This document shows, one piece after another, positions 1 to 27,023 of a stretch of 44,470 nt of DNA. Positions within the stretch are counted from its first letter, which is position 1. Each line of letters begins with the position of its first letter. The notes beneath the pieces are model-generated. The model had not been told where the DNA came from, made no database searches, and was given only the letters and a program-made list of their open reading frames with translations. This stretch comes from Pelagibacteraceae bacterium AG-359-E06 (GTDB taxonomy: Bacteria > Pseudomonadota > Alphaproteobacteria > Pelagibacterales > Pelagibacteraceae), in assembly GCA_003280495.1 (NCBI GenBank), contig QCET01000008.1:1-44470 (forward strand). Reading direction: 5' to 3'. The translations under genes and the position numbers were made by a program.

Positions 1-187
1 AAAAATAATTGAGGTATTAAAAGGTAAAACTAATACCCTTTCCCAAATAGTTACACTTAATTGTGCTGCAGGATTAATGGTTTCTTCTAAAGAAAAAAAC
101 TTAAAAAATTCATATATAAAGATAGAAAAATTTTTACAAACAGGAAAAGCTTTTAATCATTTAGAAAAGGTTATTAAAAATGACTAA
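1..187 (+). CDS. trpD: Anthranilate phosphoribosyltransferase, C-terminal end (partial)
   Basis: This is the last 61 codons of a gene cut by the window start; reading begins at base 2 and stops at TAA 185-187. TrpD transfers phosphoribose to anthranilate in tryptophan synthesis in the cytoplasm. The visible part has the family's C-terminal pattern: a 'VLKGK' turn, then 'IVTLNCAAGLMV' (the 'lNaaaaL' helix) and a closing 'FLQTGKAFNHLEKV' helix (usual form 'l.sGkA...l..l'). The stop overlaps the trpC start by 8 bases, so the two are translationally coupled, matching the usual trpDC order. The active site lies outside the window, so the call rests on the tail and on the neighbour. Confidence 0.8.
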   Translation, partial: KIIEVLKGKTNTLSQIVTLNCAAGLMVSSKEKNLKNSYIKIEKFLQTGKAFNHLEKVIKND

Positions 188-13234: not shown

Positions 13235-13785
13235 ACTGTAAGGATGTCTTTTTCTTTTTGTTTAATTTTATCTTCAATTAGTTTTATATAATTATCAGTA
13301 ATCTTTTGTAACTCATTTGCAAATTTCTTATTTTCATCATCAGAAATAATTTTATCCTTGTTATCTTTTTTAATTTTGTCCATACCTTCTCTTCTTATAT
13401 TTCTAATAGAAATTTTAATTTTTTCAGATTGTTGAGAAACTATTTTTGTTAATTCTTTCCTTCTCTCCTCAGAAAGTTTTGGTACAGGTACTCGAATAAT
13501 TTGACCATCCACTAAAGGATTAAGATTTAAATCAGATTCTCTGATACTTTTTTCAATAAATTTTACATTATTTTGATCCCAAACTTGTAAACTTAATGTT
13601 TGATGATCTGGTGTTGAAATAGAGGATAGTTGTTTAATTGGCATTGCCTGGCCATAAACTTCGACTTTAAGCAAATCAAGCATGTTTGCATGCGCCCTTC
13701 CAGTTCTAATAGAAGAAAGGTCTCTCTCTAAGCTTCCTAAAGAATCTTTCATTTTTTTTTCAAATGATTTTAATAATTCGCTCAT
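13231..13785 (-). CDS. frr: Ribosome recycling factor
   Basis: Splits the post-termination ribosome together with EF-G. The 184-residue length matches the family. The first domain helix has 'SLGSLERDLSSIRTGRAHANMLDLLKV', shown here in two parts: 'LERDLSSIRTGRA' (about 18-30) and 'HANMLDLLKVEVYG'. It is followed by 'PIKQLSSIS' and the C-terminal helices with 'EERRKELTKIVSQQSEKIKI'. The gene starts only 6 bases after the tsf stop; pyrH (UMP kinase), which normally lies between tsf and frr, is absent. It overlaps uppS by 4 bases. Confidence 0.97.
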   Translation of the reverse strand: MSELLKSFEKKMKDSLGSLERDLSSIRTGRAHANMLDLLKVEVYGQAMPIKQLSSISTPDHQTLSLQVWDQNNVKFIEKSIRESDLNLNPLVDGQIIRVPVPKLSEERRKELTKIVSQQSEKIKISIRNIRREGMDKIKKDNKDKIISDDENKKFANELQKITDNYIKLIEDKIKQKEKDILTV

Positions 13786-13791
13786 AATAAA

Positions 13792-14697
13792 TTATTTCGT
13801 CAAATTTTTTACTTCTTCATTAAAATTAGATTTGTTTATTATAATACCCTCACCTACTTTTAATCTTTTAAAATTTGTAATCTTGAATTGAATATTATGA
13901 GATTTTGAAAAATTCTCTATAGCTTTTTCAACAGTAACATCTGGATCAATCACCCATTTCTGTTTTAATAACGAATTTTCAGATATTATTTTTGAAATTT
14001 TACCATCGATAATTTTGTTTAAAATATCTGATGGCTTTTTGTCGTCTTTTAACTGTTCAATTATTATTTTTTTTTCATTTTCTATGAAATTATTATCTAT
14101 ACCTTTCTCGTCAATTGACATTGGATTTAAAGCAGCAATATGCATACAAATATTCATAGCTAATTCTTTTGCTATTTCTTCATGATCAGTATTATAAGAT
14201 AATAGAACTCCAATTTTACCTGTGCTATCTGAAGCTTTATTATGTAAATAACGAGCTATAAAGCCATCACAAATAATTTTCTCAAATTTTCTAATTTTAA
14301 TATTTTCTCCAATTTTCGCAATAAGTTTTGTTATTGCTTGCTCGATAGTTTCATTTTGGTTTATTTCTAATTTTTTTAGATCGTCTGTTGTATTTGCTTC
14401 TAAAGATTTGTTTGCAACTTCTTCACAAAAATTAATAAATTCTTTATTTTTAGCAACAAAATCAGTTTCAGAATTTATTTCTATTAAAATTCCAACCTTA
14501 TTAGATATACACGTTGCAACCAATCCTTCAGCTGCATCTCTAGAACTTTTCTTGGCAGCTTTTAAAATTCCTTTCTTTCTTAAAAAATCTACAGCTTGGT
14601 CAATATCGTTATTATTTTCTGATAAAGCAGTCTTGCAATCCTGCATACCAGCTCCGGTTATTTCCCTAAGTTCTTTAACTTTTTCAAGAGTAGACAT
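13792..14697 (-). CDS. tsf: Translation elongation factor Ts
   Basis: Nucleotide-exchange factor for EF-Tu. The 301-residue protein has the N-terminal UBA-like domain with 'VKELREITGAGMQDCKTAL' (about 7-25), the EF-Tu-contacting 'SETDFVAKN' (about 76-84), two core subdomains and a C-terminal module. It follows rpsB by 8 bases, the near-universal bacterial rpsB-tsf pair, so it should share the rpsB leader control. The last residues are a Lys/Asn-rich tail. Confidence 0.97.
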   Translation of the reverse strand: MSTLEKVKELREITGAGMQDCKTALSENNNDIDQAVDFLRKKGILKAAKKSSRDAAEGLVATCISNKVGILIEINSETDFVAKNKEFINFCEEVANKSLEANTTDDLKKLEINQNETIEQAITKLIAKIGENIKIRKFEKIICDGFIARYLHNKASDSTGKIGVLLSYNTDHEEIAKELAMNICMHIAALNPMSIDEKGIDNNFIENEKKIIIEQLKDDKKPSDILNKIIDGKISKIISENSLLKQKWVIDPDVTVEKAIENFSKSHNIQFKITNFKRLKVGEGIIINKSNFNEEVKNLTK

Positions 14698-15443: not shown

Positions 15444-15562
15444 AATTTTAACCGGTTATTCCACCGAGGAAACTACCACAAAAGTGGACCGGGGGTTACA
15501 AACCACTTTCCTCTGCGAATTTTTTTAATTTTATAATTAAAAATATCCTTTATTACAAGCAA
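15444..15562 (-). ncRNA. Candidate structured 5' leader of rpsB (likely cis-regulatory)
   Basis: This gap between dnaE and rpsB has an AT-rich upstream part (15521-15562) and a clearly more GC-rich core (15451-15517) next to the S2 start. On the minus strand GAGGAAA (15513-15507) can pair with TTTCCTC (15472-15466), 7 pairs, enclosing the hairpin CCAC-TTTT-GTGG (15487-15476). A competing helix AAAGTGG (15509-15503) with CCACTTT (15487-15481), also 7 pairs, excludes the first. CCGGT (15492-15488) can pair with ACCGG (15456-15452), 8 bases before the start codon, as a pseudoknot. Autogenous control by S2 is known elsewhere; its use here is inference. I cannot assign it to a named RNA family. 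It has no T-loop or anticodon arm, so it is not a tRNA. Confidence 0.6.
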
Positions 15563-18500
15563 TTAATTCTTTATATTAATGTCAATACCCTCAGATTTTA
15601 AGTGTTTTATGTCATCATAATTAACGTTTCTTGTTTTCGATAGGCGAAAATTATAAAGTAGATTATCTTGTTTATATTTAAGATTTACAATAGTCGATCC
15701 TTTCTGATTTTTTAGATAATTTTTTAGATTTTTAAGACTATTGCTACTATCTATAAATATATTGATTTCTTTAATGTTTTTAGGTTTTAAATTTTCAATA
15801 AAAAAAACTCTTGTAACATTTATTCGCTCAGTTCCGTCTTTGGCTAAATCTTTTTTAGTATTTATAATAAAAGAGTTACCAACCTTCAAATATTGCCTAT
15901 TTTCAATTAAATTTTCAGAAAATAAAAATAATTCAAACATTTGACTCAAATCTGTAAATTTAGCAATTGCATACGGACTACCTCTTGCAGTTTTTTTTTC
16001 TTGCAGTTTCATCAAAGTTCCACTCAAAACACATGTTTTAAGTTTTGAGTTTAATTTAAAATCTTTGTAAGTAATAACTTTTAAATCATCTAATAAAGCA
16101 CTGTGATTTTTAAGGGGATGCTCACTTACAAAGAAACCGATGGATTCAAATTCTTTTTCAATAATTTCTGACTCTTTCCATTGTTTGACATCATTTAAAT
16201 TAATAACTTGAGAGGTTTTTTCTTCTGCAAAAAGGTTGAGGTTATTGCTAGTAACTTCTGAAGTTTTGGAAGCTTTTATTAAATCCGGGACGCTTTCATA
16301 AATTTTCCTCCTATTTTTTTCAAGACAATCAAAAGCACCGGCCTTGATAAGTCCTTCTAATTGTAATTTATTTAAATTTTTACTCGAATTTCTTGATAAA
16401 AAATCATTTAGATTTTCATATTCGCCATTTTTCTCTCTTTCTAAAACAATTTTTGAAATACTATCGTAACCTACTGCTTTAATTGCAGATAATGCATAAT
16501 AAATTTCTTCACTCTTATTTGGTAAAAACTCTGAGAAGGAATTATTTATACATGGAGGCAAAATTTTTAATTTTAGTTTTTTTAATTCTTCATAAAATAA
16601 ATTTAATTTATCGGTATTTGAAAGCTCAGTATTCATAGAGGCACAAAAAAAGTAGATTGGATAATGTTTTTTTAAATATGCAGTTTGATAAGCTATTAAC
16701 GCATAGGCAGCGGCATGACTTTTATTAAATCCGTATTGTGCGAATTTCTCAACTAATTGAAAAATATACGTAGCTTGATCTTTAGATATTCCATTTTTTA
16801 TTGCTCCCTCTATAAAATCTTTTTTTTGTCTTTCCATTTCTGCTGATTTTTTTTTACCCATTGCTTTTCTCAAAATATCAGCTTTGCTAGCAGAAAAATT
16901 TGATAATGTTTGTGCAATTTGCATTACTTGTTCTTGATAAATAATTACACCATAAGTTTCATTTAAAACAGTTTTTAAGGTTGGGTGTATATAATCGATT
17001 TTTTCTTTGCCATGTTTTCTATTTATATAAGTTGGAATATTTTGCATAGGTCCTGGTCTATATAATGCTACCAACGCAATAATATCTTCAAACTTATTTG
17101 GTTTTAATTGTTTTAATACTTCCCTCATGCCAGAACTTTCAAGTTGAAAAATGCCCATTGTTTCTCCAGAGCTTAATAAATCAAATGTTTCTTGGTCATT
17201 TAAGTTAAGTTTTGAAATATCAAAATTAGGATTATCTTTTTTTATAAAGTTAACAGCTTTCTTTATCACTGTTAAGGTTTTCAATCCAAGCAAGTCAAAT
17301 TTAACTAGACCTGCGTCTTCAGATGATTTCATATCAAATTGGGTTACAGGTATAGGAATATTAGAAGATAAATCTTTATATAAAGGGACAATTTTTTTTA
17401 AGTCCTTATCTCCAATAACTATTCCTGCCGCATGAGTCGCGATATTTCTATACAATCCTTCCAATTTTAAGGAATAATTAATTAATTTTTTAATGTTTTG
17501 ATCTTCTTTCTGCGCTTGTAAAATTCTTGGTTCTATTGCAATTGACTCTGCTAAAGAAAGTGGCCTTGAAGGATCGAAAGGTATCATTTTGCATAATTGG
17601 TCAACCCTTCCATACGGTAGTCCAATCACTCTTCCAATATCTCTTAAAGCCATTCTCGCTTGCAATTTTCCAAAAGTAATAATTTGTGCAACTTTATTTT
17701 GATATTTATCTTTCACATAATTTATAACTGAATCTCTTCCTTCCTGACAAAAGTCGATATCAAAGTCTGGCATGCTAATTCTATCTGGGTTTAAAAAACG
17801 CTCAAAAATTAATCCAAATCTTATAGGATCTAAATCCGTAATAGATAAACACCAAGCAACTAATGATCCAGCACCAGATCCTCTTCCTGGTCCAACGGGT
17901 ATGAAGTTTTTTTTTGCCCATTTTACATAGTCAGAAACAATCAAAAAATATCCAGCAAATTTCATTTTTATTATTATTTCTAATTCATATTTAAGACGAC
18001 TATTGTATAATTTATCAACAGAATTTTTTTTATTTTCATCGGTTATGTTTTTAAATACAAAATTTTCTAATCGATATTTTAATCCTTCATATGCCTGTTC
18101 TTTAATAGCTGAATCAAGATTTATATTATTATCTTTTAGATTTGGTAGTAATGGTTGACATTTTTTGGGAAAATATTTTATTTTTTTTATAAGATTAAAG
18201 TTATTAGCTAAAGCATCTGGTAAATCTTTAAATAATAATTTCATTTCGTCAGATGATTTAAGATAATGTTCTGATGAATATTTTAATCTTTTTTTCTCAT
18301 TCACATAAGTTTTTTCACCTACACATATGTATGCATCGTGAGCTTCGTACATATCTTTTTCAATATAAAAAACTTCATGTGTTGCAATAATAGGTATTGA
18401 TAATTTATTGCTAAAAAATAGTAATTTTTTTTCAATTAAATTGTCATTTACCTCTTTATGTCTTTGAATTTCAATGTATAGATCGTCTTTTATTTTTCTC

Positions 18501-18973
18501 TTTATTTCATTAAGAAAAAAATCTACTTGTTCATCATTATTGTTTAGTATTAATTTATAAATTAAAGAGTTTGTTCCACCTGCCAATATAATTAAACCTT
18601 CACTAAACTTTACTAAATCATCAAATGGGCAATTTATGTCCTCATTTTCTTTTAACTCTAGATAAGATTTAGATGATAAATTAAGCATGTTTTCATATCC
18701 CTTTGCATCCTTAGCAATTATAGATACTTTTCCAATTGTATATTGATTATTGAAATTTAATTTAATATTAAGTTGATTGCCAATAACAGGTTGTGTTCCA
18801 GCTTTTGAGAGCTCATTAGAAAATTCAAGTGCTCCAGATAAATTATTAGTATCTGAAATTCCTGCAGCAAAAATTTTATTTTTTTTACAATACTCAGCTA
18901 ATTCAGATATTTTGACTGCACCTTCACATATTGAATATTGGCTATGAGTTTTATAATGTATAAATTCTCTCAC
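15563..18973 (-). CDS. dnaE: DNA polymerase III alpha subunit
   Basis: Catalytic subunit of the chromosomal replicase, DnaE1 family. The 1136 residues begin with a PHP domain ('YKTHSQYSICEGA' near 7-19), followed by the polymerase core with 'GPGRGSGAGSLVAW' near 363 and the catalytic 'PDFDIDF' near 399, 'ALYRPGPM' near 640, helix-hairpin-helix elements near 830-890 and a C-terminal OB fold near 980-1060. The start is GTG at 18973, which shares one base with the lolD stop (TAGTG). No in-frame ATG lies nearby and the PHP domain needs the region right after it. The lolC-lolD-dnaE-rpsB order is conserved in alphaproteobacteria. Confidence 0.97.
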   Translation of the reverse strand: MREFIHYKTHSQYSICEGAVKISELAEYCKKNKIFAAGISDTNNLSGALEFSNELSKAGTQPVIGNQLNIKLNFNNQYTIGKVSIIAKDAKGYENMLNLSSKSYLELKENEDINCPFDDLVKFSEGLIILAGGTNSLIYKLILNNNDEQVDFFLNEIKRKIKDDLYIEIQRHKEVNDNLIEKKLLFFSNKLSIPIIATHEVFYIEKDMYEAHDAYICVGEKTYVNEKKRLKYSSEHYLKSSDEMKLLFKDLPDALANNFNLIKKIKYFPKKCQPLLPNLKDNNINLDSAIKEQAYEGLKYRLENFVFKNITDENKKNSVDKLYNSRLKYELEIIIKMKFAGYFLIVSDYVKWAKKNFIPVGPGRGSGAGSLVAWCLSITDLDPIRFGLIFERFLNPDRISMPDFDIDFCQEGRDSVINYVKDKYQNKVAQIITFGKLQARMALRDIGRVIGLPYGRVDQLCKMIPFDPSRPLSLAESIAIEPRILQAQKEDQNIKKLINYSLKLEGLYRNIATHAAGIVIGDKDLKKIVPLYKDLSSNIPIPVTQFDMKSSEDAGLVKFDLLGLKTLTVIKKAVNFIKKDNPNFDISKLNLNDQETFDLLSSGETMGIFQLESSGMREVLKQLKPNKFEDIIALVALYRPGPMQNIPTYINRKHGKEKIDYIHPTLKTVLNETYGVIIYQEQVMQIAQTLSNFSASKADILRKAMGKKKSAEMERQKKDFIEGAIKNGISKDQATYIFQLVEKFAQYGFNKSHAAAYALIAYQTAYLKKHYPIYFFCASMNTELSNTDKLNLFYEELKKLKLKILPPCINNSFSEFLPNKSEEIYYALSAIKAVGYDSISKIVLEREKNGEYENLNDFLSRNSSKNLNKLQLEGLIKAGAFDCLEKNRRKIYESVPDLIKASKTSEVTSNNLNLFAEEKTSQVINLNDVKQWKESEIIEKEFESIGFFVSEHPLKNHSALLDDLKVITYKDFKLNSKLKTCVLSGTLMKLQEKKTARGSPYAIAKFTDLSQMFELFLFSENLIENRQYLKVGNSFIINTKKDLAKDGTERINVTRVFFIENLKPKNIKEINIFIDSSNSLKNLKNYLKNQKGSTIVNLKYKQDNLLYNFRLSKTRNVNYDDIKHLKSEGIDINIKN

Positions 18974-26702: not shown

Positions 26703-26732
26703 TATTATATGATTTATATCTTATTTATAATT

Positions 26733-27023
26733 ATGAAAAAAACAAAATTGTCGCCCGCTGATAAACTTAAAATCATTAGAAAAAATATAGATAAAATAGA
26801 TTTCAAAATGTTAAAGTTGCTTGAAAATAGAAGAAAAGAGGTACTAAAAATTATAAAGTACAAACCAAAAAGTAAAATTGTAGATCAAAAAAGAATAAAG
26901 AAAATGTTGAATTTAAGGTGTAAAAAAGCAAAAGCGTTAAAAATAGAAAAATTCATTATTACGGGTATTTGGAAAGCTATGATTAATTCTTTTATAAAAT
27001 TACAGAGAATAAAGTATAAATAA
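26733..27023 (+). CDS. Chorismate mutase-like protein, AroQ fold
   Basis: A 96-residue, very basic helical protein. It has the AroQ pattern: 'IIRKNIDKIDFKMLKLLENR' (about 14-33), where Arg16 and the second Arg of 'ENRRKE' match E. coli Arg11 and Arg28, a Lys near 41, 'VDQKR' for Asp48/Arg51, and a C-terminal 'IWKAMINSFIKLQ' helix ending in the expected Gln. The residue for Glu52, next to the second Arg, is Ile. The likely reaction is chorismate to prephenate for Phe/Tyr. Start is ATG 26733, because an upstream in-frame start would overlap the divergent ctaA. Its stop at 27023 touches convergent rpmG. Confidence 0.7.
   Translation: MKKTKLSPADKLKIIRKNIDKIDFKMLKLLENRRKEVLKIIKYKPKSKIVDQKRIKKMLNLRCKKAKALKIEKFIITGIWKAMINSFIKLQRIKYK

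Follow-up and report, generated by a model that had tools for sequence, protein, structure and literature searches.

The rpsB locus and its leader

The window, which is the whole stretch of DNA analysed (44,470 nucleotides), belongs to a small, AT-rich genome (842 kb, 79.6% complete) that is consistent with SAR11 (Pelagibacterales-like). The minus strand carries, in this order, dnaE, rpsB, tsf, frr, uppS and a cdsA-like gene, all named from their translations, and the rpsB product shares 53-96% identity with S2-like proteins across the order. The rpsB leader (15444-15562, minus strand, 119 nt) lies between dnaE and rpsB and is the only large gap in this tightly packed run, as an earlier note on the same DNA had stated; the second largest gap is 50 nt, in a ranking that sets aside 26703-27023 (321 nt with a plus-strand ORF), and rpsB and tsf are separated by 8 nt. 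The same note had pointed to a leader core (15451-15517) richer in G and C than its flanks, and this core contains 52% GC, against 27% in the window and 11% in the remainder of the leader; a GC content this high is found in only 0.025% of the window's 67-base stretches. The features of the locus are as follows.

15563-18973, minus strand: dnaE, adjoining the leader upstream
15553-15558, minus strand: -35-like TTGTAA of a probable leader promoter, read in the sequence as TTGTAA-17-TATAAA
15530-15535, minus strand: -10-like TATAAA, 12 nt before the motif, assigned from the sequence and by inference
15515-15517, minus strand: lower P1, 5' side CGC, pairing with GUG at 15462-15464
15507-15513, minus strand: P1, 5' side GAGGAAA, with compensatory changes at most pairs
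15502-15504, minus strand: P2, 5' side GGT, with compensatory changes at 3/3 pairs
15494-15496, minus strand: P2, 3' side ACC, from the covariation alignments
15488-15492, minus strand: J2-3, pseudoknot 5' strand CCGGT, in 85/85 leaders of the order, with compensatory variants outside it
15484-15487, minus strand: P3, 5' side CCAC, from the covariation alignments
15476-15479, minus strand: P3, 3' side GTGG, from the covariation alignments
15466-15472, minus strand: P1, 3' side TTTCCTC, from the covariation alignments
15462-15464, minus strand: lower P1, 3' side GTG, within the conserved GGNGG element
15452-15456, minus strand: pseudoknot 3' strand ACCGG, ending 8 nt before the rpsB start codon
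14706-15443, minus strand: rpsB, ribosomal protein S2, at the head of the presumably regulated operon, from its translation and the RF01815 context
13792-14697, minus strand: tsf, elongation factor Ts, second in the operon, named from its translated ORF rather than a family search

With TATAAA 12 nt ahead of the motif, the start of the RNA would be expected roughly at the motif itself. Of the 85 leaders of the order, 80 have boxes of the type TTGNNN-15..18-TANNN shortly before the motif, mostly 10-18 nt ahead of it, a pattern so loose that it is weak evidence, and a stricter promoter scan did not list the TTGTAA/TATAAA pair. The scan for terminator-like sites found none in the leader or after the motif, and attenuation by a terminator was thus rejected.

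Downstream in the same run, pyrH (UMP kinase), the usual place of which is between tsf and frr, is absent there (13785-13792). The pyrH profile TIGR02075 is weak at best (<50 bits) in all 25 searched genomes of the window's family, several of which are single-contig genomes about 99-100% complete, while it matches strongly (>300 bits) in 14 of 16 genomes of the sister family, near rpsB where coordinates were compared. The search with the UMP/CMP-kinase family gave sub-threshold matches only, which are possibly adenylate kinases. This essential UMP kinase may have been lost or replaced in the window's family.

Conservation and covariation of the leader RNA

The elements named in the earlier note (GAGGAAA/TTTCCTC, CCAC-TTTT-GTGG, AAAGTGG/CCACTTT and CCGGT/ACCGG) can all be read on the minus strand where it had placed them. 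The single-sequence folding energy is not unusual (z of -0.66 for the leader and -0.04 for the core), and the case for an RNA thus rests on comparison rather than on energy. A recognisable rpsB was present in 84 genomes of the order, and the regions upstream of it in these genomes, 85 leaders in all, form the comparison set. The motif is present in 85/85 of these, each containing CCGGTC, a P1 complement and AACCG(G/A), with the start codon following after 4-12 nt. The rpsB start is apparently TTG instead of ATG in three of them (L043, L044 and L048), while one assembly (G059), listed with 6% contamination, contains two different rpsB copies with different leaders (L009 and L085) and is probably a mixed bin. 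The first impression that genus g9 has no CCGGTCC was rejected, as CCGGTCTG is present there together with a covarying P3.

Across ten close leaders, 94.6% of cells are paired in the structure. When 65 distinct leaders were aligned to the model built from these ten, 94.3% of cells were paired and 15 of 23 pairs were changed on both sides, with a covariation score of 0.335 compared with 0.127 in shuffled alignments and at most 0.095 when the partners were slid by one to three columns; the score was reached by none of 500 shuffles (P1, P2 and P3). This alignment is fitted to P1-P3 and therefore favours the structure, but a plain MAFFT alignment and anchored sequences agree with it. Compared with the order's common CACAGUU form, the window's genus has four different pairs in P1, all of them changed on both sides. 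The C-G ends of lower P1 are nearly invariant, its middle pair being a G-U or a mismatch, and in the window's family most leaders show strong conservation of the GGNGG element. The structured rpsB leader that the earlier note had read from a single sequence is thus borne out by the comparison of the related leaders, all of which have the motif, its core conserved (85/85) and its stems carrying compensatory changes with strong covariation. The note had named a lack of compensatory changes, or a core not kept between species, as grounds for refutation, and neither was observed.

The note had also paired CCGGT with ACCGG next to the S2 start. The 3' strand is ACCGG in 84 of 85 leaders of the order, the sole exception being ACCGA in L007, where the outermost pair is broken. 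In the 65-leader alignment the pseudoknot never varies as a pair, and the order thus gives no information on its pairing. Outside the order, CCAGU/ACUGG in L094 and GGGGU/ACCCC, CGGGU/ACCCG and UGGGU/ACCCA in gammaproteobacteria, including E. coli, are compensatory, while UGGGU/ACCCG, which ends in a wobble, also occurs. The compensatory variants indicate that the pseudoknot was read correctly, and it had already been reported as part of the rpsB motif by Meyer et al. (PMC2704228).

Membership in the rpsB motif family

A model specific to the order finds one strong place in the window's genome, the rpsB leader (89 bits), followed by a match of 14.6 bits (E 4.7), so that no second copy of the motif was found in this genome. 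Outside the order, the same model gives 14 alphaproteobacterial matches, all directly upstream of rpsB (14/14). The Rfam search at gathering threshold gave no match in the window or in 20 loci, while a permissive search recovered RF01815 'rpsB' at full length (15517-15435, minus strand; 22.2 bits, E 0.017 in 301 bases). The gathering score of RF01815, which is a reporting threshold of the database and not a structural feature of the family, is 40 bits; the window's leader falls below it, and it is reached by none of the tested leaders of the order (best 38.1). RF01815 matches 76 of 114 sampled alphaproteobacterial genomes, of which only 28 reach the cut-off and 48 are lost. The cut-off or the seed may need revision, and annotation pipelines relying on the cut-off would miss the RNA in this order, since all of its tested leaders score below it.

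The rpsB motif was described in 2009 from the SAR11 genome of 'Cand. Pelagibacter ubique' (Meyer et al. 2009, PMC2704228), and RF01815 is taken to be this motif by name, gene and structure. The window's RNA lies directly upstream of rpsB, has a long P1 topped by a three-stem junction with short P2 (3 pairs) and P3, all three stems being kept by compensatory changes, and forms a 5-pair pseudoknot between J2-3 and a 3' strand after P1. It differs from the family in that its P1 (GAGGAAA/UUUCCUC) replaces the order's common CACAGUU type, its P3 contains 4 pairs as against the 2 reported for P. ubique, the score is below the Rfam cut-off and the spacing to the start codon is short. The leader RNA is thus real, strongly conserved and a member of a published family, and the novelty that the earlier note had suggested for it is not upheld.

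The leader of E. coli rpsB-tsf (t44, RF00127), for which no match was found in the window's genome at E 0.001, shares with the window's leader the gene, P1, a GGAGG-UAAC element and the pseudoknot geometry (GGGGU/ACCCC in E. coli), but has longer internal arms and a separate Shine-Dalgarno sequence (AGAGG) downstream of the pseudoknot. SAM-V and other SAR11 start-codon switches similarly have a pseudoknot near the start codon in a streamlined leader (PMC2704228); they differ in fold, gene and ligand, and no relation is claimed.

Spacing to the start codon and probable feedback by S2

The pseudoknot ends a median of 8 nt before the start codon in the window's family and 9 nt in the sister family, and most members of the order have no separate Shine-Dalgarno sequence in between; the sister family has a GGAG that overlaps the pseudoknot strand. 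The other alphaproteobacteria mostly have a gap of 14-20 nt, usually with an AAGGA-like Shine-Dalgarno sequence, and a few of them also have short gaps. An extra AAGGA, which the rest of the family lacks, stands after the pseudoknot and ahead of the rpsB start in genus g9 (L006 and L009-L012). For the -20 to -4 region, the mean predicted energy of pairing with the 16S tail is -4.9 and -6.6 kcal/mol, and it is about zero or above for the stretch after the pseudoknot only, a comparison that is indicative only, as the wider region includes part of GGNGG and the stretches differ in length. From this layout we infer, tentatively and with somewhat less than even confidence, that shortening of the SAR11 S2 leader has given the pseudoknot strand a second role as a ribosome-docking (Shine-Dalgarno-like) site.

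In E. coli, excess S2, helped by S1, represses rpsB-tsf through the 5' UTR (PMC10931766), and by analogy S2 most likely limits its own production through the leader here. An S1-like protein is encoded in the window's genome, matching the full profile with 411 bits, which is below the curated cut-off of the family. The RNA is, with good confidence, an rpsB-motif leader of a SAR11 bacterium through which S2, probably together with S1, would repress rpsB-tsf, presumably with the pseudoknot closing the docking site. The rpsB-tsf mRNA would begin at or just before the motif and fold into P1 capped by the junction with short P2 and P3, while CCGGU would pair with the ACCGG that shortly precedes the start codon. 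When in excess of 30S subunits, free S2, probably with its S1 partner, would bind this fold and block the translation of rpsB and, by coupling, tsf translation as well. The pseudoknot strand lies so close to the start codon (8-9 nt) that a stabilised pseudoknot would directly close the site where the 30S subunit docks; this is the most economical step of the scheme and an unproven one, with the pseudoknot as the presumed gate of ribosome access.

The earlier note had proposed a different control, in which GAGGAAA/TTTCCTC and AAAGTGG/CCACTTT form mutually exclusive helices that switch the leader between two states. Both helices can indeed be written with 7 pairs in the window, and mononucleotide shuffling of the two segments produces a 7-pair second helix only 0.7% of the time; that much of the claim stands. 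The second helix, however, has 7 pairs in the window's leader (L001) only and 6 in its nearest sister (L002), most of the 85 leaders allowing no more than 3 consecutive Watson-Crick pairs in that region. Across 65 distinct leaders it is paired in 51.9% of cells, below 499 of 500 shuffles and with no excess of covariation. Its AAAGTGG strand joins the last bases of P1 to P2, and CCAC belongs to P3, so that the match is best seen as a chance by-product of the P3 sequence of the genus. The two-helix switch was thus rejected, being neither conserved nor covarying in the relatives, and is given very little credence. No more plausible is an independently transcribed small RNA, as which the Rfam type of RF01815 ('Gene; sRNA') and the annotation of the E. 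coli counterpart (sRNA T44/tff) would class it: only 8 nt separate the end of the pseudoknot from the rpsB start codon, the copies examined all precede rpsB, and the motif is followed by no terminator-like site.

The remaining alternative concerns the mechanism of repression, namely that GGNGG and the P1 junction form the S2 operator, the pseudoknot only shapes the binding site and the S2-S1 complex traps or excludes the 30S subunit. The ribosome-binding site of E. coli is reported to lie outside the operator, S1 is needed, and the mechanism is unclear according to a 2024 review (PMC10931766), so that repression may work otherwise than by a blocking pseudoknot; a small deletion in the conserved bulge abolishes E. 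coli regulation (PMC10931766), and both the separate Shine-Dalgarno sequence of E. coli and the conservation of GGNGG in the window's family fit such an operator. In this order, however, the 3' pseudoknot strand occupies the Shine-Dalgarno position and most members have no other, which makes some occlusion hard to avoid, and an operator of this kind is considered rather unlikely here.

Repression by S2 with the pseudoknot closing the docking site would, if the strand indeed doubles as that site, mean that the remote S2 operator of E. coli and most alphaproteobacteria has become a direct on/off gate. The compacted layout, with its short spacing between pseudoknot and start codon, is one modest new point; it offers a simple system for studying how S2 represses its own gene, and the AAGGA of genus g9 provides a natural contrast for asking whether the pseudoknot gates the ribosome. 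The covariation evidence is strong, and the analysis confirms the presence of a published regulatory RNA in one more SAR11 lineage.
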